From Opitutus sp. ER46 (lineage in GTDB: Bacteria > Verrucomicrobiota > Verrucomicrobiia > Opitutales > Opitutaceae): DNA of 64,000 nucleotides. The notes beneath the pieces were generated by a model. The model ran no database searches. It was not told where the DNA came from and saw only the letters and a program-made list of their open reading frames with translations. This document shows positions 48,251-64,000 of this stretch, piece by piece. The position numbers and the translations under genes are program-made. The DNA is taken from assembly GCF_003054705.1 (NCBI RefSeq), contig NZ_QAYX01000024.1, positions 310,001 through 374,000 on the forward strand. The letters run 5' to 3'. Numbering within the stretch: position 1 is the first letter of the stretch; the number at the start of each line of letters is the position of its first letter.

Positions 48251-49438
48251 ATGAAACGCTTCGCTTTTCCCCGACTTCCTTTCTCCCTGCTTTTTGCCGC
48301 CGCGCTCGTGCCGGCGCTGCCCGCGGCCGACGCCCCAAAACCTGCGGCGAGCTCGGCGCCCGATGCCACGGTGCGCGCCGACCCTTCGCTGGCGGCGAGC
48401 AAGGAAGTGGTCGCCGAACTCGATTGGCATGACGTGACCACGTGGGGCGTCGAAGGCCGCGCTTGGGTGGACCAAACCCGCCGGAGCTGGTTCGACCGGC
48501 TGCCGGCGTCGGCCGAGCAGACGGTGACCAAGCACGTCTGGAACCTCAGCCGCGACTCGGCCGGCATGATGGTCCGGTTCAAGACCGACGCGACGAGCAT
48601 CCACGTCCATTACCTTTTGACCAAGGACCGGCTGGCGATGCCGCACATGCCGGCGACGGGGGTGAGTGGCGTGGATCTGTACGCGCGGGACGAGCAGGGA
48701 CACTGGCGTTGGGTGCAGGTGGCGAGGCCCGGCAAACAGGAGGTGAAGGCCGAGTTGGTCAAGGATCTGGCGCCCGGCTACCGCGAGTACGCGGCGTACC
48801 TGCCGTTGTACAACGGCGTGCAATCGCTGGCCATTGGCGTGCCCAAAGGGGCCAAGTTCGAGGGCCTCGCTCCCCGCACGGACAAGCCGATCGTGTTTTA
48901 CGGCACCTCGATCACGCACGGGGCCTGCGCCTCGCGTCCGGGCATGGTGCACACGGCGATCCTGGGCCGGCGGTTTGACCGGTCGGTGCTGAACCTTGGG
49001 TTTTCTGGCAACGGCAAGATGGATGCCGCCGTGGGCGCGTTCCTCACGCAGGTGGATGCCGCGGTGTACGTCATCGATTGCCTGCCCAACATGAATCCCG
49101 CGCTGGTGGCGGAGCGGACGGTGCCGTTGGTGCAGCAGCTACGCGCGGCCCATCCCGACACGCCGATCATCCTGGTCGAGGACCGGCGGCATACGAACTC
49201 GTGGATCCTGCCGGCGACGGACAAGTTCCACACCGAGAATCACGCCGCGCTGAAGGCCCAGTACGAACGCCTGCAGCAGGACGGCGTGAAGCACCTGTAT
49301 TACATCCCCGGTGACGCGCTCTACGGCACCGATGCGGAAGGCTCGACCGACGGTTCGCACGCCAGCGACCTCGGTTTCTGGCGCCAGGCCGACGTCATGG
49401 AGCCGGTGATACGTGCAGCGCTTTCGGCCGCGCGCTGA
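48251..49438 (+). CDS. Secreted SGNH-fold hydrolase (two-domain esterase)
   Basis: 395 residues from the ATG at 48251, with a signal peptide (1-26). The N-terminal beta-sandwich (about 55-205, 'WNLSRDSAGMMVRFKTDATSI') belongs to the type fused in front of SGNH esterases. The C-terminal hydrolase has block I 'VFYGTSITHGACAS' (Ser220), block II/III 'NLGFSGNGKMD' (oxyanion Gly and Asn) and block V 'DGSHASDLGF' with the Asp-His pair. Enzymes of this architecture remove acyl groups from carbohydrates. It stands alone between repeat loci D and E; no transporter is directly linked. Confidence 0.87.
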   Translation: MKRFAFPRLPFSLLFAAALVPALPAADAPKPAASSAPDATVRADPSLAASKEVVAELDWHDVTTWGVEGRAWVDQTRRSWFDRLPASAEQTVTKHVWNLSRDSAGMMVRFKTDATSIHVHYLLTKDRLAMPHMPATGVSGVDLYARDEQGHWRWVQVARPGKQEVKAELVKDLAPGYREYAAYLPLYNGVQSLAIGVPKGAKFEGLAPRTDKPIVFYGTSITHGACASRPGMVHTAILGRRFDRSVLNLGFSGNGKMDAAVGAFLTQVDAAVYVIDCLPNMNPALVAERTVPLVQQLRAAHPDTPIILVEDRRHTNSWILPATDKFHTENHAALKAQYERLQQDGVKHLYYIPGDALYGTDAEGSTDGSHASDLGFWRQADVMEPVIRAALSAAR

Positions 49439-49443
49439 CCGAA

Positions 49444-49622
49444 ATGGCTGAAGGACTGAAAGGCTGAAGCCGGAAGCCGGAGGAGGGAAGCCAGAAGCCG
49501 GAAGCCGGAGGCCAGAGGCCGGAAAGCGGTGTCGGATCGATCAGATCAGCGGATCGGATCTGGCCTCAGGCTTCCGGCTTCAGTCGGATCGCTTCAGGCC
49601 TCCGGCTTTCGCTCCTTCAGCC
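49444..49622. repeat. Heptamer array with inverted arm, locus E
   Basis: Eight regular units (49468-49523: AGCCGGA, AGCCGGA, GGAGGGA, AGCCAGA, AGCCGGA, AGCCGGA, GGCCAGA, GGCCGGA) preceded by CTGAAGG/CTGAAAGG variants, with an inverted array at about 49560-49622 (TGGCCTC, AGGCTTC, CGGCTTC). The array lies between the convergent SGNH hydrolase and POT transporter genes. Confidence 0.8.
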
Positions 49623-49634
49623 TTGGGCCGCCGG

Positions 49635-51185
49635 TCAGGCGCGGCGGTAGTGATCGGCGAGCTTGTAGCGCATGGCGTACAGGCCGAAGCACAGCGCGGC
49701 GACGAACGCGAAGACTGCGAAGAAGAACATCTGGAAGGCGGTCACGCCGAAGCCGGTGGATTTGATGGCGTTGGTGACGGCGGTGTTCTTGACGCCCGCG
49801 TTGACCACCAGGACCCAGAGGTTGCCGATCGTCACGGAGAGGTTCCAGAAGCTCATCAGTGCGCCCTTCATCGAGAGCGGGGCCTGACTGTAGGCGAATT
49901 CGAGGCCGGTGGCGGAGACGAGGACCTCACCGAGGGTGAGGAAGGCGTAAGGAAGGATCTGCCAGGTGATGGAGAGCGCGTTGCCGCGGTCCATGAGCAC
50001 CTGCAGGGTGCCGACGATGATCCAGGCGACGCCGGAGAGCGCGATGCCGGCAGTCATGCGGCGGAGCGCGGTCGGCTCGTAGCCGAAGCGGCGCAGGGCG
50101 GGGTAGACCACCAGGTTGTTGAGGGGGATCAGGATCATCACCAGAGCCGGGTTGAGCGCCTGCATCTGGGAGGACTGGAACCAGGACGGCTTCGTCATGG
50201 CGTCACCCTGGAGCACCCAGGTGGAGGCCTTCTGGTCGAAGAGGGACCAGAATGGGGTGACGAGCGTGAAGAGCACCAGCACGCGGAGGACGGAGCGCAC
50301 GCCCTCGATGGCCTCGTCGGGATGACGCCCGCGGGCGCCCTCGAGCTGCATCCAGACGCCGGCGCCGCCGAAGGCGATCACGGCCACAAGGGCCACGCAG
50401 GCGCCGATGACGAAACCGATCTTGGGGGCGGCGATCAGGGCGCCGAGACCGACGACGAGGCCGAGGATGGCGAGCGCCATGCCGGGCGTGCCGGACTTCA
50501 GCGCGGTCATGGAGACGTGCAGGAAGGAGTTGGGGTCGCGCGGCGCGGGCGGGACCATGACGTAGCGCTTGCGTCCGATCCACAGCAGGAGCGTGGCGAT
50601 GAACATCAGCGCGCCGGGCACGCCGAAGGCAATCTTGGCGCCGAAGCTGCGCAGGAAGATGGGCATCAGCAGCGAGGCGAAGAAGGACCCGAAGTTGATG
50701 ATCCAGTAGAAGGCGTCGAACACGACGCGGGCCAGGTGCTTGTTGGTCTGGTCGAACTGGTCGCCGACGAAGGCGGCGACGCACGGCTTGATGCCGCCGG
50801 AACCGAGCGCGATCAGAAGGAGGCCGGTGTAGAAGCCGGGCTTGGAGGTGTCGAAGATCGAAAGGAAGACGAAGCCGAGGCAGTACACCAGGCTGAGCCA
50901 GAAGATGGTGCGGTACTTGCCGAGGAGACGGTCGGCGATCCAGCCGCCGAGGAGGGGGAAGAAATACACGCCGATGACGAACGTGTGGAAGATCTCCTTC
51001 GCCTCCGGGCCGCGTTCGGACTCCGGCAGGTACAGCAGGAGCGAAGAAACGAGGAAGGCGGTGAGGATGTTCCGCATCCCGTAGAAACCGAAGCGCTCGC
51101 AGCCCTCGTTGCCGATGATCAGCGGAATCTGGCGCGGGACGCGGGCGGGTTCGGGCGGCGGAGTGGTGGCGGCGGGAGTCGACAT
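49635..51185 (-). CDS. POT-family proton-coupled oligopeptide transporter
   Basis: 516 residues from the ATG at 51185. The POT signature is at the N-terminus: 'IIGNEGCERFGFYGMRNILTAFL' carries the ExxERFxYYG motif (with F-x-F-Y-G). 'GGWIADRLLGKYRTIFW' and 'GSGGIKPCVAAFVGDQF' follow, the latter the second conserved POT block. Fourteen hydrophobic segments are expected for this length. It imports di- and tripeptides with H+. The frame continues to 51647, but that part translates a GTTCTC hexamer array as alternating Glu-Asn and is rejected. It converges with the SGNH gene across repeat locus E. Confidence 0.9.
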   Translation of the reverse strand: MSTPAATTPPPEPARVPRQIPLIIGNEGCERFGFYGMRNILTAFLVSSLLLYLPESERGPEAKEIFHTFVIGVYFFPLLGGWIADRLLGKYRTIFWLSLVYCLGFVFLSIFDTSKPGFYTGLLLIALGSGGIKPCVAAFVGDQFDQTNKHLARVVFDAFYWIINFGSFFASLLMPIFLRSFGAKIAFGVPGALMFIATLLLWIGRKRYVMVPPAPRDPNSFLHVSMTALKSGTPGMALAILGLVVGLGALIAAPKIGFVIGACVALVAVIAFGGAGVWMQLEGARGRHPDEAIEGVRSVLRVLVLFTLVTPFWSLFDQKASTWVLQGDAMTKPSWFQSSQMQALNPALVMILIPLNNLVVYPALRRFGYEPTALRRMTAGIALSGVAWIIVGTLQVLMDRGNALSITWQILPYAFLTLGEVLVSATGLEFAYSQAPLSMKGALMSFWNLSVTIGNLWVLVVNAGVKNTAVTNAIKSTGFGVTAFQMFFFAVFAFVAALCFGLYAMRYKLADHYRRA

Positions 51186-51330
51186 GGAGAGAAGGGAGAG
51201 GGAAAGCAGGCGGCGCGCCGACGCGTCACACGAGGGGAGAGGCGGGACGGCGGCGTTCGCGAGCCACGGTGAACAGGTAATCCGGTGAGCGGAAGGCGGA
51301 AAAGGCCCCAGGGGGGGAGCGCCCCCTAAG

Positions 51331-51614
51331 CTCTCTCTCTTCCTCTTACTCGTCCTCTTTCTCCCGCCCGTCCCTGCCCCGTCACCTCGCCCGTCGTTCT
51401 CGTTCTCGTTCTCGTTCTCGTTCTCGTTCTCGTTCTCGTTCTCGTTCTCCGCGGCGCGGCTACTGCAGCTCCGTCCCCGGCGCAACTTCACCCATCGCGC
51501 GACGCGGGCCGCCGGCGCCGGCGGCCACCGGCAACTTGATCTCGCACCGCCCAGATGACGGCCGCGGCACGCGGCCGTCATGAGAGAACGAGAAAGAGTA
51601 CGAGAAAGAGAAAG
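51331..51614 (-). repeat. Hexamer-tract/palindrome element, copy 3
   Basis: A pyrimidine tract (51331-51364), a short spacer, nine perfect GTTCTC units (51396-51449), about 105 bp, a GC palindrome with 12-bp arms (51555-51566 / 51570-51581, ATGACGGCCGCG) and a purine tract of GAGNAM hexamers (51581-51614). This is the same order as copy 2. A smaller G-run/C-run hairpin lies at 51310-51327. Together these fill most of the 518-bp gap between the POT transporter and glpD. Confidence 0.78.
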
Positions 51615-51640
51615 ATGTGACCGCCCTGAAGGGGCGGAGA

Positions 51641-51671
51641 GAAACAAACGGGGGCGCCTTGCGGCGCCCCC
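51641..51671 (-). terminator. Rho-independent-type terminator of the glp cassette
   Basis: On the minus strand GGGGGCGCC-GCAA-GGCGCCCCC (51671 down to 51650) is followed by GTTTGTTTC. It lies 33 bp after the glpD stop and so ends the five-gene cassette transcribed from 57885. Confidence 0.75.
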
Positions 51672-51703
51672 GGGTGCTTTATCTATGGCCTAATGGAAAA
51701 CGT

Positions 51704-53182
51704 TCAGCGCTTGGTGGGCGGCGGGACGGGAACGCCGACCGCAGCGCGGTAGGCGGCGATCTCCTGGGCGCGCCGTTCGGGCGTCCAGCCAGCGATCTCG
51801 GCCATCCAGGTGGCCACGCGTTCGGCGAGGTCGCCGGACTCGTAGTAGTGCCAGCTGCTGCGGCGCACGAGGACGTCGTCAAGGTGCACGGCCCACTCGT
51901 TCTTCACGTAGTGTTCCACGGCCTCGCGTGTGACGGGCGGCGGGACAATGCCGCTGAAGTTGTTGGGCACGTCCGTCGGCAGGAGCGGTTCCTGCGCGGT
52001 GCGGGAGCGGCCGGCGCTGTGGCCGAGGAAGCGGGCGATCTTGTCGACGGCCTGTTCGGCCATGAGCCGGTAGGTCGTGAGCTTGCCGCCGGCGATGTCC
52101 CACCAGCCCGGCTGCGGGTTCTTGATCTGGTGGGCGCGGGAGACGTCGGAGGGCGTGCCGTCCGGATTGGCGATGAGGGGACGGATACCGGCCCAGGAGC
52201 TGATGATGTCCTTTTCCTTGATCGCGTTGGACGGGAAGTAGTCGTTGACCGCGCGCAGGACGTACGTGACGTCCTCGTTGGCCACGCGAACGTCCTCGGG
52301 GGCGCCCTGGTAGTCGGTGTCGGTGGTGCCGATGATGACGCGCTTGCCCCAGGGAAGGACGAAGATGATGCGCTTGCCCTCGGTGATGACGACGGCGGCC
52401 GGCACGGGGAGGCGGCTGCGGTCGATGACGACGTGAATGCCCTTGCTGAGCCGGAGCTTCACGGAGCTGTGGCGGATCTGTTCGGCCCAGGGTCCGGTGG
52501 CATTGACGATGGTCTTGGCCTGGACGACGTACTTCTGGCCGGTGATCTTGTCCTCGAGCTGGATCTTCCAGAGGTCACCCTCGCGGGTGGAGTCGACGAA
52601 GCGGAGGTAGTTGGCGACCGTGGCGCCGTAGCGGGCCGCGGACGTCAGGGTGTCGTACACGAGCCGGGCGTCGCTGGTGAGGGCGTCGAAGTAGCGGACG
52701 CAGCCGCCGAGCTTCTCGCTGCGGAGGGTGGGCAGCATCTCGAGGGTCTCGCGGGCGTTGAAGCCGCGGGACGGCTGGAAATTGCGGCCGCCGCAAAGCA
52801 GGTCGTAAATCTTGACGCCGATGCGGAGCTGCCAGACCGGCCAGCCCTTGCCCTTGTAGGACGGGAAGAGGAAGCCCAGCGGATCGCCGAGGTGCGGCGC
52901 AATGTCGCGGATCGTCTTCTTTTCGACGCTGGCCTCATGCACGAGTCCGACCCGCCCCTGTTCGAGGTAGCGGATGCCGCCATGGAGGAGCCGGCTGGAG
53001 CGGCTGCTGGTGCCGAAGGCGAAGTCGTGCTGCTCGACGAGCGCCGTGCGCAGGCCGCGCATGGCTGCGTCGCGGGCGACGCCGCTGCCGACAACGCCGC
53101 CGCCGATGACGAAGACGTCGAGGGGGGCGGCGGTGAGCTTTGCCTGGATTTCCGGTCGGGAGAGAACCGTGTTTGCCGTCAT
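51704..53182 (-). CDS. glpD: FAD-dependent sn-glycerol-3-phosphate dehydrogenase
   Basis: 492 residues. N-terminal FAD Rossmann motif 'DVFVIGGGVVGSGVARDAAMRG' (22-43), then 'GTSSRSSRLLHGGIRYLEQG', the classic GlpD signature, 'INATGPWAEQIR'-like 'VNATGPWAEQI', 'GTTDTDYQG' and 'GGKLTTYRLMAEQAVD' near the C-terminus, followed by the helical C-terminal domain. It oxidises sn-glycerol-3-phosphate to DHAP at the membrane and passes electrons to quinone. It overlaps the HAD phosphatase gene by 4 bp and is the last gene of the cassette, with a terminator 33 bp beyond. Confidence 0.94.
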   Translation of the reverse strand: MTANTVLSRPEIQAKLTAAPLDVFVIGGGVVGSGVARDAAMRGLRTALVEQHDFAFGTSSRSSRLLHGGIRYLEQGRVGLVHEASVEKKTIRDIAPHLGDPLGFLFPSYKGKGWPVWQLRIGVKIYDLLCGGRNFQPSRGFNARETLEMLPTLRSEKLGGCVRYFDALTSDARLVYDTLTSAARYGATVANYLRFVDSTREGDLWKIQLEDKITGQKYVVQAKTIVNATGPWAEQIRHSSVKLRLSKGIHVVIDRSRLPVPAAVVITEGKRIIFVLPWGKRVIIGTTDTDYQGAPEDVRVANEDVTYVLRAVNDYFPSNAIKEKDIISSWAGIRPLIANPDGTPSDVSRAHQIKNPQPGWWDIAGGKLTTYRLMAEQAVDKIARFLGHSAGRSRTAQEPLLPTDVPNNFSGIVPPPVTREAVEHYVKNEWAVHLDDVLVRRSSWHYYESGDLAERVATWMAEIAGWTPERRAQEIAAYRAAVGVPVPPPTKR

Positions 53183-54051
53183 AGGGAGGTTGGGTTGGAG
53201 CGGGCGGTGGCGATGGCTTCGCCGAGTTCGGCCAGCGTGGGGACCACGAGGTCGGGAGGCGGGTTGGCGGCGGCGGCGTCTGCGGCGGTGGCCTCGCCCG
53301 AGAGGACGAGGACGCCGAGGGCCTTGGCGCGGTGCGCCATCATCATGTCCGTGTAAATGCGGTCACCGACCATCGCGATCTGCTCGGAGCGCAGACCATG
53401 GCGGTCGCGGATGCCGTCGAGCATGGACGGGTCGGGTTTGCCGAAGGTCTGGTCGGGGGTGCGGCCGGCGGCCTGGGCGAGTGCGGCGCAGATCGAACCG
53501 CAGTCGACGAGGACGTTGGGCAGATCGGTCGGGCAGACGAGGTCGGGATTGGTCGCGAAGTAGGGCTTGCCCCGGTGAATCCACCATGCGCTGCGGCAGA
53601 GGCGGGCGTAGGTGAGCGTCAGGTCGAAGCCGACGACGACGGCATCGGGTTCGTCCTTGGGGTCGTCCGCGGTGAGCGTGAAGCCGGCGGCGGCGAACTC
53701 GGCCTGCATGCTGGGCGTGCCGAGGACAAAGAGGCGGCGGAGCTCCGGGCGGCGGCTGCGGAGGAAGTCGATCGTCGCCAGGGCCGAGGTGTAGAGCTGG
53801 TCGGGCGCGGCCGGGACCCCGATCTTGCGCAGATGGGCGAGGTAGTCGGCGGCGCTCTTGGACGGGTTGTTCGTCAGGAAGGAGCAGCCGATGCCGAGCG
53901 ACTTCATCCGCTCGAGAAAGGGCAGCGTGCACGCGAAGAGCGTGCCGCCCTTGTAGATGGTGCCATCCATGTCGAGGGCGACGTGGCGGAGGCCGCGCAG
54001 CGAGCGCGCGAGCGCGGGAGAGAAGGAAGAAGCGGGAGAGGACGCAGGCAT
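53179..54051 (-). CDS. HAD-family phosphatase of the NagD/AraL type
   Basis: 290 residues from the ATG at 54051, 7 bp after the glpT stop. HAD motifs: 'HVALDMDGTIYKGG' (nucleophile Asp27, Asp29), 'CSFLTNNPSKSAADY' (motif II Thr/Asn), 'GKPDPSMLDG' (motif III Lys) and 'MVGDRIYTDMMMAHRA' (motif IV). The C2A-type cap between motifs II and III is that of NagD, AraL and phosphoglycolate phosphatases. Such enzymes hydrolyse sugar or glycerol phosphates. It is cotranscribed with an AraM-type G1P dehydrogenase, as araL is with araM in Bacillus subtilis, so a role in removing glycerol phosphates is plausible. The frame runs to 54279 inside glpT; ignored. Confidence 0.85.
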   Translation of the reverse strand: MPASSPASSFSPALARSLRGLRHVALDMDGTIYKGGTLFACTLPFLERMKSLGIGCSFLTNNPSKSAADYLAHLRKIGVPAAPDQLYTSALATIDFLRSRRPELRRLFVLGTPSMQAEFAAAGFTLTADDPKDEPDAVVVGFDLTLTYARLCRSAWWIHRGKPYFATNPDLVCPTDLPNVLVDCGSICAALAQAAGRTPDQTFGKPDPSMLDGIRDRHGLRSEQIAMVGDRIYTDMMMAHRAKALGVLVLSGEATAADAAAANPPPDLVVPTLAELGEAIATARSNPTSL

Positions 54052-54058
54052 CGGAGGC

Positions 54059-55369
54059 TTACTCGTCGTAGCCATGGGCCTTGGCGGGCCAGGCGAGGAT
54101 AAACATGAAGGTGCCGATCGCGCCGACGCCGAGGAGGGCGCCGAAGGCGATGTCCCAGCCGGAGGTCTGGACGAGTTTGCCGAGGCCCCAGCCGGAGATG
54201 AGCGTGCTGGCGTAGCCGAACAGGCCGGTGAAACCGGCGGCGGTGGCGGCGGCGCGCTTGGTGGCGAGATTGGCGGCAATGATGCCGATGAGGGCCTGCG
54301 GGCCGTAGATGAAGAATCCGGCGGCGCCGAGGAAGACCATGGACATGACGGGCGAGTCGCCGGGGATCTTCCAGAAGGCGAAGAGCGAGGTGGCGGCCCC
54401 GATCATGCAGAGGACGCACATGCGGGCGCCGCGGCCGCCGAAGAACTTGTCGGTGGCCCAGCCGGCGAGGAGCATGCCGATGAGGCCGGAGACCTCAAAG
54501 CCGGCGACCATCCAGCCCGCGTGATGGAGGGAGAAGCCCTTCATCTCCTTCAGCAGCGTCGGACCCCAGTCGAGGACGGCGAAGCGGAGGATGTAGACGA
54601 AGAAGTTGGCGAGGGAGATCCACCAGATGTACGGGTTGCCGAACACGTGGCGGCGGACGAAGGTCTTGTACTCCTCCGTGCTCTTGTCCTCGTTGTGCGC
54701 GTGCTGGGTGCCGGTGACCTGGATTTCCGGGAGGCCGACGGAGGTCGGGGTGTCGCGCAGCAGGAGGAAGAGAATGATGCCGGCGAGCGTGCAGAGGATG
54801 GCGGGGGCGAAGAAGCACCAGCGCCAGCCGAAGGCGACGATGTAGCCGCAGAAGACGGCGGCAACCCAGGCGCCGATGGAGTGCGACGTGTTCCAGATGG
54901 ACATCTTGGTCGCGAGGCGCTCGGGCGGGAACCAGTGGGTCATGAGCCGGCAGCACGGGGGGAACCCCATGCCCTGCACCCAGCCATTGACCATCCAGGC
55001 GACGCCGAGGAAGAGGACGCTGGAGCTGAAGCCGAAGAAGACGTTGGCCACGACCGAGAGCATCAGGCCGGCGACCATGAAGTAGCGGGCGTTGGCGCGG
55101 TCGGCCCACATGCCGTTGACGAAGCGGGACACGCCGTAGAGCAGGCCGTGCAGCGTCAGGAACAGGCCGAGGTCGGCCTTCGTGATGTGCAGGTCCTCCT
55201 GCATTGCCGGCATCGCGAAGCTGAGGTTCTTGCGGACGAAGTAGAACGCGGCGTAGCCGAACATCAGCGACACCAGCGTGCGCGTCTGCCAGTAGCGGAA
55301 GCGGCGCGCGACCTCGGGGTTCGATTCCGGGGTGGCGGGCGCGGGGGCGGAGGCGGAGGACGCGTTCAT
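54059..55369 (-). CDS. glpT: GlpT-type organophosphate:phosphate antiporter
   Basis: 436 residues from the ATG at 55369, twelve membrane segments. The family signature 'FGYAAFYFVRKNLSFAMPAM' supplies the TM1 Arg of GlpT/UhpT. Others are 'GLFLTLHGLLYGVSRFVNGMWADR', 'GWVQGMGFPPCCRLMTHWF' and 'GPQALIGIIAANLATKRAAATAAGFTGLFGY', all conserved in the organophosphate:Pi antiporter family. It exchanges external glycerol phosphate (or a related phosphate ester) for internal Pi. It is separated from the upstream G1P dehydrogenase gene by 133 bp with several palindromes, so its level may be set separately. Confidence 0.92.
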   Translation of the reverse strand: MNASSASAPAPATPESNPEVARRFRYWQTRTLVSLMFGYAAFYFVRKNLSFAMPAMQEDLHITKADLGLFLTLHGLLYGVSRFVNGMWADRANARYFMVAGLMLSVVANVFFGFSSSVLFLGVAWMVNGWVQGMGFPPCCRLMTHWFPPERLATKMSIWNTSHSIGAWVAAVFCGYIVAFGWRWCFFAPAILCTLAGIILFLLLRDTPTSVGLPEIQVTGTQHAHNEDKSTEEYKTFVRRHVFGNPYIWWISLANFFVYILRFAVLDWGPTLLKEMKGFSLHHAGWMVAGFEVSGLIGMLLAGWATDKFFGGRGARMCVLCMIGAATSLFAFWKIPGDSPVMSMVFLGAAGFFIYGPQALIGIIAANLATKRAAATAAGFTGLFGYASTLISGWGLGKLVQTSGWDIAFGALLGVGAIGTFMFILAWPAKAHGYDE

Positions 55370-55433
55370 GGCGGGAGGATCAGCAACGTGGAGAAGCGGG
55401 CGGCGAAGGGCCAGCTCAACTCGCATCGAATAT

Positions 55434-55494
55434 CTATGCGCATAGGGAGTTTGCGCGGCTCAGCCGCGGGAAAGGGCCGGCGCGGCGCCGGCCC
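55434..55494 (-). promoter_or_regulatory. Three nested palindromes between the G1P dehydrogenase gene and glpT
   Basis: In 61 bp there are CTATGCGCATAG (55434-55445, perfect), CGCGGCT-C-AGCCGCG (55454-55468) and GGGCCGGCGC-G-GCGCCGGCCC (55474-55494). Read in the direction of transcription, the strongest hairpin comes first and is followed by TTTCCC, so it may attenuate readthrough; the 12-bp palindrome nearest glpT has operator symmetry. Confidence 0.5.
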
Positions 55495-55502
55495 GGGCAG
55501 TT

Positions 55503-56888
55503 TCAGGGGTGGGCGGGGGCCCAGGGGCCGCGCGGGCCGAAGATCTCGTCGAGGCAGGCCTCGGTCACGCCGGCGCGCAGCGCGAGGTCGAGCACGGTGA
55601 AGCGGCGGCGGATGAACTGCGCGCGGATGAAGGTGCGGCGCAGGCGCTCCAGCGGGATGCCGATTTCGCGCGGGTCGGTGGGCGCGCCCACCGCTCGCAG
55701 CCGGGCGCGGGCGTCCGCGAACGGAATCAGCTGCGTCTGCAGCCGGCGGCGCAGCTCGGGCCAGCCGGCGCGGAGGCGCGTGAGCTGCGTGCGCAGCTCG
55801 GCGGGCGTGACGTGCTTCGCCTGGGTCTCGCGCACCGCCGTGGCGAGGAACTCGTCGCCGGTAAAGAGGGTTTCCGTCGTGCGCCGGATGGCCGCGGCGT
55901 CGGGCCACCGGGCGACCGCCGCCTCGACGTCCAGTTGTTCGAGGGGCTGGCGCAGCAGCGCCTCGTAGAAGGCGGTGACCGCGAGCGTGGCGATGCCCAC
56001 CTTGAAGCCGTGGGAGGGGGCCGCCCCCTGGTGGGTGTGGTGCTCCATGTCCCAGAGGTGGCTGAACTGGTGTTCGGCGCCGGAGGCGGGCCGGCTCGTC
56101 TTCGTCCATTGCATGGCGAACCCGCCGAGCATCAGCCCCTCGACGAGCGGCATGAGGGCGGAGGCCTTGCCGGCGCGGGCGCCGGCGGGATCCGCCAGGG
56201 CGTCGCGCAGGCCGCCCTGCACGATGGCCCAGGCGCGCGGGTCGATGGGTTCCGCGCCGATCGCGTCGGCGAGGATCCAGTCGGCGCCCGCGGGCACCTT
56301 GGCAAAGAGGTCGGCGTAGCCCGAGGCGGTCATCGCCGTGGGCGCCTGGCAAAGGATGTCGGTGTCCGCCACGACCGCGCGGGGCGCGGGGCAGTTGAAG
56401 GTCTGCTTTGCGCCCTCGAAGGTGATGGACGCCCCGAAGGCGGTGTAGCCGTCCATCGAGGCGGCCGTGCCGACGCACAGGTAGGACGGCCGGCCGGTGC
56501 GGTGGGTGACCAGCTTGGTGAGGTCGTTGATGGTGCCGGAGCCGACGGCGATCGCGATCGCGTCGTGCAACCGCAGCGCCGCCTCGAGCTGCTCGACGTA
56601 CTTGAACTCGGCATACAGGGCCGGGTCGGTGAAGATAAACGGCGGCAGGGTCTCGATGTGAGCGGCGGCCAGAGCGGCCGCCACGGTCTGGCCGGCGAGC
56701 GCGAACGTCCGCGGGTCCGCGACGATGATGGCGCGCGCGCCCGGGAAGTGCGTGCGGAAGACCTCGGGCACGAGCCGGAGGACGCCGGGACCGACGTGCA
56801 GCGCGCGGGTGTCGTTCGCGCAGGCGAGCGCCTCGGCAAGCGTGAGGCGGGAGCCGTTGGAGGGGAGTTGGGTGGTGCTGGTGGCCAT
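55503..56888 (-). CDS. sn-glycerol-1-phosphate dehydrogenase (AraM/EgsA family)
   Basis: 461 residues from the ATG at 56888, 22 bp after the regulator stop. It belongs to the iron-containing alcohol dehydrogenase superfamily, G1PDH branch: 'AIAVGSGTINDLTKLV' (112-127, nucleotide binding), 'VGTAASMDGYTAFGASI' (139-155), metal ligands probably Asp193 in 'GYADLFAK', His273/277 in 'EHQFSHLWDMEHH' and His293 in 'PSHGFKVGI'. AraM from Bacillus interconverts DHAP and sn-glycerol-1-phosphate with NAD(P)H. Paired here with GlpD and GlpT it may run as an oxidation of G1P to DHAP; direction is inference. Confidence 0.88.
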   Translation of the reverse strand: MATSTTQLPSNGSRLTLAEALACANDTRALHVGPGVLRLVPEVFRTHFPGARAIIVADPRTFALAGQTVAAALAAAHIETLPPFIFTDPALYAEFKYVEQLEAALRLHDAIAIAVGSGTINDLTKLVTHRTGRPSYLCVGTAASMDGYTAFGASITFEGAKQTFNCPAPRAVVADTDILCQAPTAMTASGYADLFAKVPAGADWILADAIGAEPIDPRAWAIVQGGLRDALADPAGARAGKASALMPLVEGLMLGGFAMQWTKTSRPASGAEHQFSHLWDMEHHTHQGAAPSHGFKVGIATLAVTAFYEALLRQPLEQLDVEAAVARWPDAAAIRRTTETLFTGDEFLATAVRETQAKHVTPAELRTQLTRLRAGWPELRRRLQTQLIPFADARARLRAVGAPTDPREIGIPLERLRRTFIRAQFIRRRFTVLDLALRAGVTEACLDEIFGPRGPWAPAHP

Positions 56889-56910
56889 CGGATTGGAGCT
56901 GGACGCGGCG

Positions 56911-57885
56911 TCAGGGCCGGGTTTTGCGGCGCGGGGCCGCAGGCGTGGCGGCGAGCAGGGCGGCCGCGCCGAGTTCATCAATGAGCAAAGACTTGAGAAT
57001 GCCGCCCTGGAGGGCCGCGAGGATCGCAGCCGTGCGATCGGCGCCGGAAACGACGCCGATGACCTCCGGGATCCGCCGGAGCTGCTCCAGGGAGATGCTG
57101 ATCACCCGGTGGCGCCAGCTCGTGGCGCACTCGGCGCCGGCGGCGTTGAGGAAACGGCCGCAGATTTCGCCGACGGCGCCGGCCCGCTCGAGTTCGCCGG
57201 CCATGGTGGCGTCGAGGGTGCCGCGCTCGGCGAACACCGAGTTGCCCAGAACGCCGACGCCGACGAGGGCGACGGATGCGCGGTCGAGGTGTTCCTGAAC
57301 GCGACGGACCTGGGGCAGCTCCAGCAGGGCATCACGGGTGCGGCGTTCGGGGATGAAGGCGGGGGTGTTGAGGGCGAGAAAGCTGCCGCCCTGGCGCTGG
57401 GCGACGACCCGCCCCACCTCGTGGGCGTCGTAAATGCTGGTCGTGGAATCAACGCTGCCCATGGCCTGCACGATGGTCAGGGCCTTGCTGCGGGCGACGG
57501 GCAGCTGCAGCACGAGCTCGTGAATCGTGCGCCCGCCGGCGACCGCGACGATGGCGCGCGGGGGAATGAGGGCGTCGACCACCGCGGCGCCGAAATGCCC
57601 GACCGAGCGGCGGACGTCGGTGCCCAGCCGGTCGCCACACTTGATCACCACCACCTGGCGCAGCCCGAACCGGGCGCGCAGCCGCTCCTCGAGCTCGGGG
57701 CGGCGGGGATCGTAATCCGCCACCGTGATGCGGACGATGCCGCGTTCGCGGGCCACGGCGAGCAGGCGGGAGACCTTGGCCTGGGAGACGCGGGCGAAGC
57801 GGGCCACGTCGCTCTGCCCGAGGCCGTCTATATAATAGAGGCGCGCCACCAACCGGAGCTGATCGTCAGAATAATCATGCGACAT
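56911..57885 (-). CDS. SorC/DeoR-type (SorC family) transcriptional regulator
   Basis: 324 residues from the ATG at 57885. N-terminal helix-turn-helix 'ARLYYIDGLGQSDVARFARVSQAKVSRLLAVARERGIVRI' followed by the SorC sugar-phosphate-binding domain ('ELEERLRARFGLRQVVVI', 'VAVAGGRTIHELVLQL', 'GVGVLGNSVFAERG', 'GVVSGADRTAAILAAL'). SorC regulators bind sugar phosphates, which suits a cassette handling glycerol phosphates. It is the first gene of the cassette and probably autoregulates. The frame continues to 58056 but overlaps the promoter region shared with the divergent TonB receptor. Confidence 0.9.
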   Translation of the reverse strand: MSHDYSDDQLRLVARLYYIDGLGQSDVARFARVSQAKVSRLLAVARERGIVRITVADYDPRRPELEERLRARFGLRQVVVIKCGDRLGTDVRRSVGHFGAAVVDALIPPRAIVAVAGGRTIHELVLQLPVARSKALTIVQAMGSVDSTTSIYDAHEVGRVVAQRQGGSFLALNTPAFIPERRTRDALLELPQVRRVQEHLDRASVALVGVGVLGNSVFAERGTLDATMAGELERAGAVGEICGRFLNAAGAECATSWRHRVISISLEQLRRIPEVIGVVSGADRTAAILAALQGGILKSLLIDELGAAALLAATPAAPRRKTRP

Positions 57886-58087
57886 TGGTATGTAGCGACG
57901 GTCGGAAGCGGCCGGTGCGCGGGGTGTGGCGAACCCCGCGCGGCTAGTCGGGGCCGGGCTGGCCGATTCGGGATGGGGTGCGTGAGGCTGTAACGTAAAT
58001 GGCACCGGCGAAGGATTGACACGGGGAATCAGCGGGCTCAAAAGAATGAATGTCAATGCGGAATATTTATTCTACACCCTAACCGCC

Positions 58088-61000
58088 ATGCTCATCCCCC
58101 TCGTGCCCCTCATCGCCCGCCTCGTGCGGCGCACCGGAGCTTCAGCGCTGCTGCTGCTGCCGTTTCTTTCCTCCCTGGCGCTCGCCCAGCCGGCCACCGG
58201 CGTCGTGATCGGCCGCGTCTATCACACCGGAACCAAGGAATACGTCCGCAACGCTGAGGTGCGCGTCGAGGGCACCAACGTGAGCGCGTTCACCGAGGAC
58301 GCGGGCTTCTATCGTCTGGCTGGCGTGCCGGCGGGCGAGGTGCGGGTGACCGTGACCTACACCGGTGCCCAAAGCGTCACCGACAAGGTCGTGGTCACCG
58401 CCGGCGCCACCGCGACGCGGGACTTTGAACTGCAGGCGATGGCCGCCTCCGAGAATGTGATCACGCTCGAGACCGTGAGCGTGGTGGCGGAGCGCGAGGG
58501 CCAGTCGAAGGCGATCATGGAGCGCCGGGCCGCGCCGAATGCCAAGAATGTCGTGGCCTCCGACAACTACGGCGACCTGACGATGGGCGACGTGGGCGAG
58601 TTCATGAAGTCGATGCCCGGTCTCTCCCTCGACTACGTCGAGGTCGACACTAGCGCCGTCCGCGTGGGTGGCCTGGATCCAAAGTACTCGAACTTCACCA
58701 CCGACGGCGCCCGCATGCCGACGGGTACCTCGAACAACAACGCGGGCCGGCAGAACTCCTTCGAGCAGATGTCGATCACCGGCATCGAGTCGATCGAGTT
58801 TAACAACACGCTGACCGCGAACATGGACGCCGACTCACCCGGCGGCTCCATCAACCTGCGCAGCAAGTACGCCTTTCAGCGCCGGCACCGCGAGCTCTCC
58901 TTCCAGTTCGGTGGCGTCGGCACGTCCGACTCGCACTTGCGGCGGGAATATTTCCCGGATGACAAGAAGCACAGCCGCATCTTCCCGACGGGCCAGATCA
59001 GTTTCGGCGACGTGTACTTCCACGGGCGGCTGGGCGTCGAATTCAGCCTCAGTTATTCCGCCAACTTCGTTGAGCAGGATCGTCACCAGCTCGACTGGAT
59101 CTACCCGAGCAAGTATCCGGATGGCATCCCCTACCGGGCGATGTGGCGCGCGGGCCCGAAGGAGACGACGCGCGAGGCGGCGAATCTCAGCATCGACTAC
59201 AAGCTCACCGACCGGCTCACGCTGTCGCTGCGCAGCACCTACTCGGACTATGCCGTGGAGTATGTGAACCAGTACACGTTCCTGTATTTCGGCAGCACCA
59301 GCACCTCCAACGTCGCCGCCGGTTCCACGCCAACCCACATCATCGGGTCCGGCACCACGAACACCCGCGTCGCGACCGAGTATTCCCACCGCTTTGCCGA
59401 CACGCCGGTTATCCTCTTCGCCCCGAAGATCGAGTATAAGGGCGACACCTACAAGGCCACGTTGCGCGGCAGCTATTCCAACGCCCGCTACAATTTCCGC
59501 GCCGGCATGAAGGGCTTCTTCCAGCGGGACGACAGTGCCATCACGAATCTCGGCGGCTTCGTCATGGACCGGCCGGACAGCGAGTCGATCGCTTGGACCA
59601 TCACGCAGACCAACGTCACGCCCACGAACGACTGGAGCAACCCGGAGAACTGGAAGGCCTATGGCACGAACAGTGTCCGCGATGCGAACTCGGATACGAC
59701 GAACGAGATGTTCAGTGGTTATCTCGATTTCGAAAAGGACCTGTGGATTCGCGACCAGCCCATCAAGGTGCTGACCGGCGGCGGGACGCGGACCAACTCC
59801 TGGAACTCCAATGAAGGTGGCTATGTGGCCTACACGTTCGTCGGGCCCACCGGGGTTCAGAATCAGGCCACCGTGCCCTACACGAAGAACTACCAGGCCA
59901 AGATCATCGGATTCGACGCGGGCAACTTCAACGACCTGAACTGGCGCGCGGACAGCAATTACGCGACGTACGACCTGTTCCGGGAGCATCCGGAGTACTT
60001 CCTGCAGAATGACACGGGCAACCTGCAGCGCCGGTTGGCCAACACCAAGGGCCTGATTGAACAGATCTCGGCCGCGTACGTCGAAGCGCAGACCCGCTAC
60101 AAGAAAATGCGCTTCGACTTTGGCGTGCGGTACGAGCGCACGGGCGACACGTCCAAGATTTGGGATGTGCGGCCGGCGAAGGATGTCTACACCGCCGGCT
60201 ACAAGGTGATCGGGTCGGCCGCCCAGGTGGCGGCGGATCCCGCGCATTACGTGCTTACGAGCACGGGCGCGCCGGCCGCCGGTTTCGCCAGCACCCCGGA
60301 AGGCATCATCTACCAGTACAACAACGGCGTGCAGGGCCGGCGGCACAGCAGCTATGGCAACTGGTTCAAGAGTGGTGGCATCAAGTTCGACTTCACCCGG
60401 AAGCTCGTCGGCCAGATTGCGTTCAGCGACGCGATCCTCCGCCCCGACTATGGCAATCTCGCGGGGGCGACTTCGGTCAGCGACACCAACAACACGGTCA
60501 CGGTCCCCAATCCCAAGCTGAAGCCGGAAAAGTCCACCAAGTACTACGCCGGTCTCCAGTACTTCCTGGAGCCCTCTGGCGTGGTTGGCGTTTCGTTCTA
60601 TCGGCTCCGGTTGCAGGACATGCAGGTCACCGGCCAGGAAATCGCCGATCCCACGACCATCGGCTACAGCGACACCGATTATCCGGGGTACCGGTATCTC
60701 AGCGCCCAGAACGATCCGAGCGTTCGCTATACGAACGGCCTGACGTTCGAGTACAACCAGCAGCTCACCTTCCTGCCGCGCATCTTCAAGGGCTTCGGGC
60801 TGTACGGCTCGGTCACCCGCGTGATGGCCGATGGCATCCGGGTGAATACGCCGAACAAGTCGGCCAACTGGGGCCTCAAATATTCCTATCGCCGCTTCCG
60901 GGTGCAGGTAAATGGGAGCTGGCAGGGCACGGCGCGCACCAGCGCGCTCAGCGCCACGCCGACCACCGTCAACGGTGGCGTCCTCTATCGCGCGTCGCGC

Positions 61001-61174
61001 GAGCTGTGGGGCATCAGCGCGGGCTACAAGCTGACGTCGAAGCTCGAGCTGATGGTTTCCGGCCGCAATATCTTCAACGCGCCCGATATCGTCTACTCCA
61101 ACGTCCCGGGGCACCTGCAGCAGTACAGCATCTACGGTTCCTTGTGGACCGCGGGCATCAAGGGGCGCTTCTAG
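58088..61174 (+). CDS. TonB-dependent receptor with N-terminal carboxypeptidase-like domain
   Basis: 1028 residues from the ATG at 58088 (upstream in-frame ATG at 58046 gives a poorer signal peptide). Signal peptide ends 'LALAQ' (about residue 34). An N-terminal CarboxypepD-regulatory-like domain (about 36-115, 'VIGRVYHTGTKEYVRNAEVRV', 'GFYRLAGVPAG') precedes the plug ('GDVGEFMKSMPGLSLDYVE', 'SIEFNNTLTANMDADSPGGSINLRSK') and a large barrel ending 'TAGIKGRF'. The plug wording matches the TonB-dependent receptors typical of Opitutaceae and relatives for saccharides. It is divergent from the sorC-type regulator; a LacI regulator and sugar transporter follow. Confidence 0.92.
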   Translation: MLIPLVPLIARLVRRTGASALLLLPFLSSLALAQPATGVVIGRVYHTGTKEYVRNAEVRVEGTNVSAFTEDAGFYRLAGVPAGEVRVTVTYTGAQSVTDKVVVTAGATATRDFELQAMAASENVITLETVSVVAEREGQSKAIMERRAAPNAKNVVASDNYGDLTMGDVGEFMKSMPGLSLDYVEVDTSAVRVGGLDPKYSNFTTDGARMPTGTSNNNAGRQNSFEQMSITGIESIEFNNTLTANMDADSPGGSINLRSKYAFQRRHRELSFQFGGVGTSDSHLRREYFPDDKKHSRIFPTGQISFGDVYFHGRLGVEFSLSYSANFVEQDRHQLDWIYPSKYPDGIPYRAMWRAGPKETTREAANLSIDYKLTDRLTLSLRSTYSDYAVEYVNQYTFLYFGSTSTSNVAAGSTPTHIIGSGTTNTRVATEYSHRFADTPVILFAPKIEYKGDTYKATLRGSYSNARYNFRAGMKGFFQRDDSAITNLGGFVMDRPDSESIAWTITQTNVTPTNDWSNPENWKAYGTNSVRDANSDTTNEMFSGYLDFEKDLWIRDQPIKVLTGGGTRTNSWNSNEGGYVAYTFVGPTGVQNQATVPYTKNYQAKIIGFDAGNFNDLNWRADSNYATYDLFREHPEYFLQNDTGNLQRRLANTKGLIEQISAAYVEAQTRYKKMRFDFGVRYERTGDTSKIWDVRPAKDVYTAGYKVIGSAAQVAADPAHYVLTSTGAPAAGFASTPEGIIYQYNNGVQGRRHSSYGNWFKSGGIKFDFTRKLVGQIAFSDAILRPDYGNLAGATSVSDTNNTVTVPNPKLKPEKSTKYYAGLQYFLEPSGVVGVSFYRLRLQDMQVTGQEIADPTTIGYSDTDYPGYRYLSAQNDPSVRYTNGLTFEYNQQLTFLPRIFKGFGLYGSVTRVMADGIRVNTPNKSANWGLKYSYRRFRVQVNGSWQGTARTSALSATPTTVNGGVLYRASRELWGISAGYKLTSKLELMVSGRNIFNAPDIVYSNVPGHLQQYSIYGSLWTAGIKGRF

Positions 61175-61191
61175 GTCCTGCGATTCTCTCC

Positions 61192-61225
61192 GCCGCGCCG
61201 ATCTCCCGATTGGCGCGGCTTTTTT
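61192..61225 (+). terminator. Rho-independent terminator of the TonB receptor gene
   Basis: GCCGCGCC (61192-61199) pairs with GGCGCGGC (61212-61219) and is followed by TTTTTT (61220-61225), starting 17 bp after the stop codon. It is the only textbook intrinsic terminator with a U-run in the window's plus strand. Confidence 0.9.
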
Positions 61226-61299
61226 GTGCCCCCTGGACTGCGTGGGCGCGCCGCCCCTGAAACAAGCCGCCGCCCCAAGGCGCATCTCCGGGCAACGCG

Positions 61300-62478
61300 C
61301 TACCGAACCGACGCCGACAGCGTGGCGCTCGGGTCATCCTGTTGCCGCCGATTCGGACACGAGGCGCCGTCGAACCAGGTTCCCGCGACGAACGTCGTCG
61401 TCGGGATCTCCGGCACGCCGAATTTGTTGTGGTGGAGCTGGCCGGCCAGGATTTCCACCGCCAGCCCGCCGACTTCCTCGTGGTTCTGCCGCACGCCGGC
61501 GATCCGGCCGCGGGCGGTGTCCTCCAGGAAGACATCCACGAAAGCGAGGTCGCGTGGCACGCGCAGTCCCAGCTCGGCGAAGCAGGGCTGCACGAACGAG
61601 GACTTGCTGATCACCACCTCGGGCTCGTATTTGCGGAACCAGCGCTGGAACGCCGCGGTGGGCGCGGTGACGTCGGCCTGGCTCTCGGCCATCCATGCCG
61701 CCACGGGCTCGGCTTCCGGAAACATCAGCATCGGGATCCGGTCGGCCACGGGCACGTTGGCCTGTTCGCAGAGAAAGCCGGCGGACCAGAGGTGATCCAC
61801 GCTGTGGTCCCAGCCGCGGTGCATGACGAAGCCGATGCGCTTGTAGCCCGCCGCGAGCACCTGCCGGAGCGCCAGCCGAATGATGCTGCACTGGTTGTTG
61901 GTCACGTTGTGCAGGCCTGGCTGATGGGGGAAATAGTCGATCTTCACCGCGCTGAAGTGCGCCCAGTCGAACTCCAGCGCCACGTCCTGCTCCCGCATGT
62001 GCGAAGCGATGATCAGGCCGTTGATGCCGCGCGTCTCCAGGATGCGGTTCAGTCGCGCCTGCGTCAGCCCCGGCTCGCTCATCCAGAAATGCTCCAGTTT
62101 GAACCCGAGGTCCTGCGCCTTGGCCGCCGCGCCGGCGTAGAACTGCGGGTGTGCGGTCACCTTCTGCCAGCCAAACCGCGTGTTCCAGTTGGTCACGTAT
62201 GCGAGCGTCGGCGGATTTCGCCGCGGCATCGTCTTGCTGCGGTACGCCACCAGCGCCTGCAGGTAGGGATCGGGTCGGTAGCCCATCCGCTCCGCCAGCT
62301 TCTGAATGCGCGTCCGCGTCTCCTGCGGCAGCCGCGGATGATTGCGCAGCGCCAGGGAAACGGTCGTGACGTGGACGCCGGCTTTGCGGGCGACGTCGGC
62401 TAGGGTGGTCCGGCGTTCGTTCACGGCCGCGATGGGAGCAGGCGCCCGGGCTGGTTCAAGTCTATTGTTAGTCTCCAC
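61300..62478 (-). CDS. LacI-family transcriptional regulator
   Basis: 392 residues from the ATG at 62478; a GTG at 62424 just before the helix-turn-helix ('RRTTLADVARKAGVHVTTVSLALRNHP') is an alternative and gives a more usual LacI start. Hinge 'RPDPYLQALVAYRS' then the effector-binding domain ('TLAYVTNWNTRFGW', 'RGINGLIIASHM', 'GYKRIGFVMHRG', 'DLAFVDVFLED'). It is divergent from an MFS transporter 107 bp away, its likely target. GGTTCA (62453-62458) and TGAACC (62533-62538) form a widely spaced inverted repeat in the shared region. Convergent with the TonB receptor, which ends in a terminator. Confidence 0.9.
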   Translation of the reverse strand: METNNRLEPARAPAPIAAVNERRTTLADVARKAGVHVTTVSLALRNHPRLPQETRTRIQKLAERMGYRPDPYLQALVAYRSKTMPRRNPPTLAYVTNWNTRFGWQKVTAHPQFYAGAAAKAQDLGFKLEHFWMSEPGLTQARLNRILETRGINGLIIASHMREQDVALEFDWAHFSAVKIDYFPHQPGLHNVTNNQCSIIRLALRQVLAAGYKRIGFVMHRGWDHSVDHLWSAGFLCEQANVPVADRIPMLMFPEAEPVAAWMAESQADVTAPTAAFQRWFRKYEPEVVISKSSFVQPCFAELGLRVPRDLAFVDVFLEDTARGRIAGVRQNHEEVGGLAVEILAGQLHHNKFGVPEIPTTTFVAGTWFDGASCPNRRQQDDPSATLSASVR

Positions 62479-62585
62479 CCCCGCTTGTGGCTTGGCGGCC
62501 CCCCCGGCGAAATCCCACCATTACCTAGCTGAACCGCCTGGCGTGGTGCGCCCCTTGCCCTGCGCCACTCACCCCTTTCAACCCC

Positions 62586-64000
62586 ATGGCTGCCCCTACT
62601 GAACGCCTGTCCTTCCGGGAGAAGTCCGGCTACGCCGTCGGCGACATCGCCACCAACTTCTTCTTCCAGTCGATGATCCTCTACCAGACCCGTTTCTATA
62701 CGGATACGGTGGGGCTCTCGGCCGTCGCGGTCGGCATGATGTTCCTGGTGCTGCGTCTGGCGGACGCGCTCGTCGACCCGGTCGTCGGCGCGCTTTCCGA
62801 CCGCACCCAGACGCGCTGGGGCAAGTTCCGCCCGTGGATCCTCTGGACGGCCGTGCCCTTCGGCCTGGTCTTCTGGCTCGTCTACCTTTCCCCGAGCTTC
62901 GGGCCCATGGGCAAACTGGTGTACGCCTACATGACCTACACCCTGGTCATGATGCTCTACTCGGCGAACAACACGCCGTACTCCGCGTTGATGGGCGTCA
63001 TGACTCCCGACGCGGGTGAGCGCACCAGCGTCGCCAGTTACCGCTTCGTCGCCGCCCTCGTCGGCCAGTTCATCGTGCAGGCGCTGACGCTCCCGCTCGT
63101 CGACAAGTTCGGCCAGGGCAACAGCGCCCACGGCTGGGCCGTCACGATGGGCATCCTGGGCGTGGCGATCGTCGTCCTGAACCTGATCGTGTTCGCGACC
63201 ACGAAGGAACGCGTTCTGCCGATGACGGCGCAGAAGTCGTCGCTCAAGCAGGACCTCAAGGACGTGTTCACCTGCGGCCCGTGGCTGGTGATGTTCGTGC
63301 TTACGCTGCTGATCTTCACCACGTTGGTCGTCCGCGGCAGCTCGCTGAACTATTTCTGCTCGTACTTCCTCGACCAGGGGGCGGTTCGCAGCTTCCTCGA
63401 AAACCTCGGGCTCGGCACCGCCGCGACGGGCGTCGAGACCGGCTGGTGGAAGTGGACCCTTGGCGCCCTCGGTCTCCTGGTGAAACCCGACGGCTCCAAC
63501 GCCGCGGGCGTCGGCTTCAGCCTCATGATGGTCGCCGGCAGCCTGATTCAGATCGTCGGCATCATCTGCTCGAAGCCGCTGGCCGATCGCTTTGGCAAAA
63601 AGGCGGTCTTCATCTCCGGCATGGCCGTCACGATGCTTGCCACCGTGATGGTGTTCTTTGTCACGCCGACCTCAATGAACCTGCTGGTGTTCGCGAGCAT
63701 CCTCTGGCCGCTCGGCTGGGGCCCGACCGTCCCGCTGCTCTGGGTGATGATCGCCGACGTCGCCGACTACTCCGAGTGGAAGACCTCCCGCCGGGCCACC
63801 GGCTTCATGTACGCCGGCATTCTCTTTGCCCTCAAGGCGGGCCTCGGCCTCGGTGGCGCGCTCAGCGGCTGGATCATCGCGGCCTACGGGTACGTGCCCA
63901 ACGCCGTCCAGAGCCCCCATGCCCTCCTCGGCATCCGGCTCGGTGCCAGCATCTACGCGGCCATCCCGTTCGCCCTCGGCCTGGTCTGCCTCGCGATCTA
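62586..64000 (+). CDS. GPH-family (glycoside-pentoside-hexuronide) sugar transporter, cut by window end
   Basis: 471 codons from the ATG at 62586 to the window end, with no stop yet. GPH/MelB signatures: 'EKSGYAVGDIATNFFFQ' at the N-terminus, 'LADALVDPVVGALSDRTQTRWGKFRPW' with the family's cation-binding Asp pair, and 'VMIADVADYSEWKTSRRATGFMYAG'. About twelve membrane segments. Such porters import oligosaccharides, pentosides or hexuronides with Na+ or H+. Two polar insertions around residues 255-300 make it longer than MelB. Divergent from the LacI regulator. Confidence 0.9.
   Translation, partial: MAAPTERLSFREKSGYAVGDIATNFFFQSMILYQTRFYTDTVGLSAVAVGMMFLVLRLADALVDPVVGALSDRTQTRWGKFRPWILWTAVPFGLVFWLVYLSPSFGPMGKLVYAYMTYTLVMMLYSANNTPYSALMGVMTPDAGERTSVASYRFVAALVGQFIVQALTLPLVDKFGQGNSAHGWAVTMGILGVAIVVLNLIVFATTKERVLPMTAQKSSLKQDLKDVFTCGPWLVMFVLTLLIFTTLVVRGSSLNYFCSYFLDQGAVRSFLENLGLGTAATGVETGWWKWTLGALGLLVKPDGSNAAGVGFSLMMVAGSLIQIVGIICSKPLADRFGKKAVFISGMAVTMLATVMVFFVTPTSMNLLVFASILWPLGWGPTVPLLWVMIADVADYSEWKTSRRATGFMYAGILFALKAGLGLGGALSGWIIAAYGYVPNAVQSPHALLGIRLGASIYAAIPFALGLVCLAI

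Follow-up and report, generated by a model that had tools for sequence, protein, structure and literature searches.

The window analyzed here, a stretch of 64,000 nucleotides on contig C24 of the 5.7 Mb genome of Opitutus sp. ER46 (Opitutaceae), carries five minus-strand genes in the order sorC-araM-OPA-HAD-glpD, spanning 57885 down to 51704, in what we propose is an operon for the use of glycerol phosphates. The unit encodes putative dehydrogenases for both enantiomers, sn-glycerol-1-phosphate (G1P) and sn-glycerol-3-phosphate (G3P), together with a predicted transporter, a phosphatase and a regulator, and its core recurs in at least four phyla, often with a glycerophosphodiesterase (GDPD) gene.

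Organization of the operon

The operon comprises the following features.

56911..57885, minus strand: SorC-family transcriptional regulator, 324 aa; PF04198 sugar-binding domain, 196.7 bits against a cut-off of 27
55503..56888, minus strand: AraM-like dehydrogenase, putative G1P dehydrogenase (G1PDH), 461 aa; PF13685; 9h4x; metal-ligand and signature residues
54059..55369, minus strand: OPA-family transporter, GlpT-like, 436 aa; another possible start at 55426; nearest solved structure GlpT 1pw4
53179..54051, minus strand: HAD-IIA (NagD/AraL-type) phosphatase, 290 aa; TIGR01460; nearest solved structure 1vjr
51704..53182, minus strand: GlpD-like FAD glycerol-3-phosphate dehydrogenase, 492 aa; 4-nt overlap with the HAD gene
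51649..51672, minus strand: intrinsic terminator-like hairpin at the operon end, directly past glpD; perfect, 10 G-C pairs throughout, loop of 4, T-rich tail TTTGTTTCTC

Successive genes are separated by 22, 133, 7 and -4 nt. Families were assigned by Pfam and NCBIfam profile scans with curated cut-offs, which call DAO/GlpD, Hydrolase_6/HAD-IIA, MFS_1/OPA, Fe-ADH_2 and the SorC sugar-binding domain. These family names hold; because AraM, the transporter (as GlpT) and, narrowly, GlpD fall below equivalog cut-offs, we infer their exact functions. A sequence-only reading of this DNA had placed the five genes in one unit devoid of arabinose genes. The gene coordinates and shared strand agree with it, and the same scans find no arabinose catabolic gene among the flanking genes, so this is not a Bacillus-type arabinose operon. 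Beyond the terminator, on the same strand, lies a POT-family peptide transporter gene. Just upstream of that gene is a perfect 9.3-copy repeat of the hexanucleotide TCGTTC (51394-51449), which would read (Glu-Asn)n if the transporter's reading frame has an early start.

Residues and relatives of the encoded proteins

AraM scores 106.2 bits against PF13685 (Fe-ADH_2; cut-off 28) and matches the solved G1PDH 9h4x with an E value of 1.1e-65. It keeps D193, H273 and H293, which we take from family knowledge to be the metal ligands (Asp, His, His), and the signature SRPASG.EH..SH, which alignments to 9h4x, 5fb3 and 4rgq place in G1PDHs including the archaeal ones and which is present in 74 of 87 alignment rows. 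Most glycerol dehydrogenases align with AraM over the N-terminal domain only. Family membership and these conserved residues are the basis on which sn-G1P is predicted as its substrate, with oxidation of G1P as the presumed direction.

For the transporter, the best solved match is GlpT (1pw4, E 1.5e-83). The GlpT residues R45, K46, H165, Y266, R269, D274 and E299 are all conserved, with the phosphate-site residues R45, H165 and R269 corresponding to R46, H163 and R262 of the window protein. The label "GlpT" given in the sequence-only reading therefore stands at the level of the OPA family and its phosphate site and not at that of the GlpT equivalog TIGR00712 (334.8 against 632.55 bits). We regard the protein as an OPA transporter that probably takes glycerol phosphates. 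The folds of AraM and the transporter are settled by their sequence similarity to the G1PDH and GlpT of known structure.

The phosphatase scores 113.3 bits against TIGR01460 (cut-off 100.15), has all four catalytic motifs (DMDGT, TNN, GKPDP and GDRIYTD) and is closest among solved structures to a 4-nitrophenylphosphatase (1vjr). GlpD belongs to PF01266 (DAO; 170.4 bits), has as its nearest structures the solved G3P dehydrogenases 3da1 (E 6.6e-82) and 2qcu (E 2.1e-71), and falls narrowly short of the equivalog PRK12266 (352.2 against 360 bits). It is the only GlpD found by a search of the host genome, which encodes one GpsA and one clear GlpK, both outside the operon.

Recurrence of the gene set with glycerophosphodiesterases

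AraM is an accessory gene, with a match in 8 of 132 genomes of the order; a sample of the phylum gave matches in 119 of 387 genomes, many of them weak. We mapped the neighbors of AraM with profile HMMs at 86 loci, 80 from named genomes and 6 from the order, or 85 after one duplicate was dropped. The 80 named loci were picked by closeness to the window AraM, and the counts thus describe this AraM clade rather than all bacterial AraM. Within 6 kb of AraM at the 85 loci, OPA transporters occur at 50, HAD phosphatases at 44, GDPDs at 28, DeoR regulators at 15, SorC regulators and GlpD at 13 each, and FGGY kinases at 11. In the flanks 5-10 kb away, OPA occurs at 5 of the 86 loci, HAD at 2, GDPD at 1 and GlpD at none. 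The grouping is not due to chance, and GDPD and OPA genes co-occur at 24 of the 85 loci. Whether the gene set recurs in other genomes had been posed as a check of the sequence-only reading, which it passes in Verrucomicrobiota, Planctomycetota, Acidobacteriota and Bacteroidota.

The arrangements vary around a common core. Opitutaceae relatives (L016, L026-L029, L055, L079) have SorC-(GDPD)-AraM-(OPA)-HAD-(GlpD), Planctomycetota (L071, L072, L075, L082) GDPD-AraM-OPA-HAD(-GlpD), a Solibacter bin (L062) SorC-GDPD-AraM-OPA-HAD, and Pedobacter AraM-OPA-HAD. Bacteroides, Parabacteroides and a Bacteroidales bin (L038, L040, L042) have GlpD-GDPD-AraM-OPA-HAD, with a DeoR regulator in two of the three. 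Gut-type Bacteroidales (L086, L088, L091, L096, L099, L100, L102) are without HAD and have a calcineurin-like phosphoesterase (MetallophosN/C) after AraM-OPA, which perhaps replaces GDPD or HAD. Sulfatase genes, which are common in these phyla, lie close to the cassettes of L026 and L055.

The GDPD link, which like the divergent receptor described below was absent from the sequence-only reading, is our main new evidence. The cassette GDPDs form two subfamilies: those of Verrucomicrobiota and Planctomycetota resemble the host enzyme L110 (42-53% identity), and the main Bacteroidota ones are most like host L108. Their N termini, read by eye, are signal-peptide-like, so these enzymes should act outside the cytoplasm. 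Because two GDPD subfamilies and two regulator families (SorC and DeoR) have joined the same AraM-OPA core in different lineages, the pattern suggests that the cassette was assembled repeatedly for one purpose, the freeing of glycerol phosphates from diesters. That relatives carry GDPD genes within the cassette supports a catabolic role and suggests, as the source, glycerol-phosphate diesters (phosphatidylglycerol head groups, lipoteichoic-type polymers) rather than archaeal lipids specifically. The host genome encodes five GDPDs outside the operon; one, at C22:129106, shares 46-53% identity with the GDPDs that Opitutaceae relatives have in their cassettes, and inspection of two host GDPD regions (L121, L122) revealed no obvious cassette genes.

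A divergent receptor and a candidate operator

Two further features lie beyond sorC.

58088..61174, plus strand: TonB-dependent receptor, divergent from sorC; PF00593, PF07715, PF13620; TIGR01782 at 274.7 against 310 bits
58047..58072, minus strand: imperfect 26-bp palindrome GAATAAATATTCCGCATTGACATTCA, candidate operator (a lead only), between sorC and the divergent receptor

Relatives of the receptor, 46-55% identical, are divergent from sorC in L029 (5848-8826) and L079 (5729-8821), and L028 has a different large divergent reading frame with receptor-like sequence. The receptor is probably the outer-membrane importer of the same unit, and it may transport something bigger than glycerol phosphate.

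The palindrome (58072-58047) lies 15 nt upstream of the receptor ATG at 58088, and the host genome has a single exact copy of it. L028, L029, L055 and L079 share the element, again upstream of sorC and, in the last three, close to where the divergent gene begins. This distribution is suggestive of a SorC operator. The palindrome may instead be a general receptor-promoter element in this family, since a degenerate copy with two mismatches (L125, G000:C16:55002-55027) precedes an unrelated TonB receptor by about 37 nt and since, in L016, L027 and L028, the sorC start codons look similar to the element. A consensus scan found no sigma-70 promoter; no RNA element was detected in 49000-64000 at Rfam thresholds.

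A proposed pathway for glycerol-phosphate utilization

We propose that the receptor would carry glycerol-phosphate diesters or oligomers over the outer membrane, where a periplasmic GDPD, which many relatives encode within the cassette and the host at other genomic sites, would release glycerol phosphates. The OPA transporter would then import these, phosphate going out in exchange, and the two dehydrogenases would converge on dihydroxyacetone phosphate (DHAP), GlpD from sn-G3P and AraM from sn-G1P. Catabolism of mixed glycerol-phosphate diesters would call for a G1P-specific enzyme beside GlpD, as we infer from the operon. The HAD phosphatase may dephosphorylate esters that accumulate or that neither dehydrogenase takes, such as glycerol-2-phosphate, and SorC may sense a phosphorylated intermediate. 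Import and oxidation of both enantiomers to DHAP, as the sequence-only reading had suggested, is most likely what the operon does: synteny in four phyla and the GDPDs of relatives favor it over the other readings, with the substrate of AraM resting on the family and residue evidence given above. For the whole proposed pathway, from glycerophosphodiester to DHAP, we put the probability at roughly 0.6.

Several points weigh against it. AraM reaches 159.6 of the 413 bits set for the curated G1PDH equivalog (NCBIfam NF002022), and the earlier label "G1P dehydrogenase" accordingly holds for the Fe-ADH_2/AraM family and not at equivalog level; AraM is also far from the characterized enzymes, with 7.2 changes per site along the branch that leads to the 9h4x fragment. 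AraM could in principle run toward G1P, the host operon lacks a GDPD of its own, and close AraM relatives are found at nine pentose/pentitol loci without an OPA transporter.

Alternative roles for AraM

Those nine loci (L059, L060, L061, L064, L078, L087, L093, L097, L104), from Apibacter, Bacteroidales, Planctomycetota and Actinomycetota, form a second context in which AraM, usually with HAD, lies beside L-ribulokinase-type FGGY kinases and, at some of the loci, AraD or RbtT/DalT-type transporters, with an arabinanase in L087. This arabinose or pentitol setting recalls the Bacillus arabinose operon with its araLM pair, here in unrelated phyla. They underlie the strongest alternative, that this AraM subfamily acts on another polyol or polyol phosphate, such as ribitol or arabinitol phosphate, and that the operon uses several, OPA import and phosphorylation by FGGY kinases being alternative supplies of the ester. 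Ribulokinase-type kinases and OPA transporters never share a locus, as if one replaced the other (OPA at 0 of 9 loci against 50 of 76; Fisher p 1.7e-4, uncorrected for kinship). Sister AraMs in the tree (L061, L062, L078) are split between the two contexts, and in Singulisphaera L061 (11987-16653) SorC-AraM-HAD-GlpD is followed by RbtT and a ribulokinase, which brings both together. On one reading of this pattern, AraM can be provided with a polyol phosphate either by OPA import or by cytosolic phosphorylation, each able to stand in for the other, with several polyols possible. The neighbors GDPD, GlpD and MIP nevertheless indicate glycerol; GlpK-type kinases occur together with OPA in L048 and L071, so glycerol is favored there; and the C-terminal signature is that of G1PDHs, with most glycerol dehydrogenases confined to N-terminal alignment. 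We consider a different polyol substrate unlikely on balance, at something like one chance in a handful.

Less probable still is a glycerol-forming branch, in which AraM would reduce DHAP to G1P and HAD would convert G1P to glycerol, consuming NADH apart from the G3P pool of phospholipid synthesis and leaving imported G3P to OPA and GlpD. AraM and HAD are indeed neighbors in both contexts (44 of 85 loci; 8 of 9 pentulokinase loci), in Apibacter an MIP channel gene immediately precedes AraM-HAD, and B. subtilis AraM is described as G1P-forming (PMC8262930). However, OPA, GDPD and GlpD in the same unit indicate uptake and oxidation, and importing glycerol phosphate merely to remake glycerol would be futile.

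A role of AraM in providing G1P for a lipid or surface polymer of the host is very improbable: the best-known bacterial AraM does serve heptaprenylglyceryl phosphate synthesis (PMC8262930, PMC6431249, PMC5059525), but PcrB/GGGPS (PF01884) was found in none of 14 AraM-carrying genomes, the host and 13 others (B. subtilis and archaeal controls positive; completeness known for 4 of the 14), the operon holds no glycosyltransferase or polymer gene, and relatives have GDPD and OPA beside AraM. This absence makes it improbable that AraM supplies an ether-lipid pathway, and an archaea-like ether-lipid module was rejected for the host genome. The fallback offered by the sequence-only reading, that the unit makes G1P for an unknown polymer, is disfavored on the same grounds, with transporter and phosphodiesterase pointing inward.

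Discussion

Parts of the proposed glycerol-phosphate utilization operon have counterparts in well-known systems. The E. coli glp regulon includes GlpT, GlpQ, GlpD and GlpR. The operon shares with it an OPA antiporter with the same phosphate-site residues, an FAD-dependent G3P dehydrogenase and, in relatives, a glycerophosphodiesterase; it differs in adding AraM and HAD, in having SorC in place of GlpR and in the TonB receptor alongside, although DeoR-type regulators do occur in Bacteroidota versions of the cassette. Like B. subtilis araABDLMNPQ-abfA, the operon unites neighboring genes for a HAD-IIA phosphatase and an AraM-family dehydrogenase, with OPA and GlpD in place of the arabinose genes. 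B. subtilis AraL was inactive on glycerol 3-phosphate (PMC3207120). With the archaeal G1PDH (EgsA) and the B. subtilis AraM-PcrB route it shares the AraM/EgsA family, the metal ligands and the SRPASG.EH..SH signature, and it departs from them in sequence distance, catabolic neighbors and the lack of PcrB/GGGPS.

Sources of sn-G1P are at hand in bacteria. The phosphatidylglycerol head group and lipoteichoic acid contain sn-glycerol-1-phosphate units, enantiomeric to those of wall teichoic acid (PMC7086022, PMC8262930). Archaeal lipid breakdown, the example given in the sequence-only reading, is thus one possible source among these. The feeding of a transporter by a GDPD-family enzyme in relatives resembles the release of sn-G3P from wall teichoic acid by GlpQ. 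GlpQ is sn-3-specific and frees no G1P from intact lipoteichoic acid (PMC7086022).

No single part of the operon is new in kind; together they make up a conserved system without description in the open-licence papers searched, where we also found no account of G1P catabolism. That sn-G1P catabolism is widespread in bacteria, with AraM oxidizing G1P that GDPDs free from phosphatidylglycerol head groups, lipoteichoic-type polymers or archaeal lipids, is in our judgment an even bet. So far the AraM of bacteria has chiefly been assigned to lipid synthesis, and it has figured in the debate on the "lipid divide" (PMC6431249, PMC5059525). If most AraM of Bacteroidota and of Verrucomicrobiota and Planctomycetota serve G1P catabolism, the presence of the gene would be uninformative on archaea-like lipids. 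Such catabolism would also offer a metabolic destination for the sn-1-phosphoglycerol units of bacterial phosphatidylglycerol and lipoteichoic acid, and much of bacterial AraM would be reassigned from lipid synthesis to nutrition.

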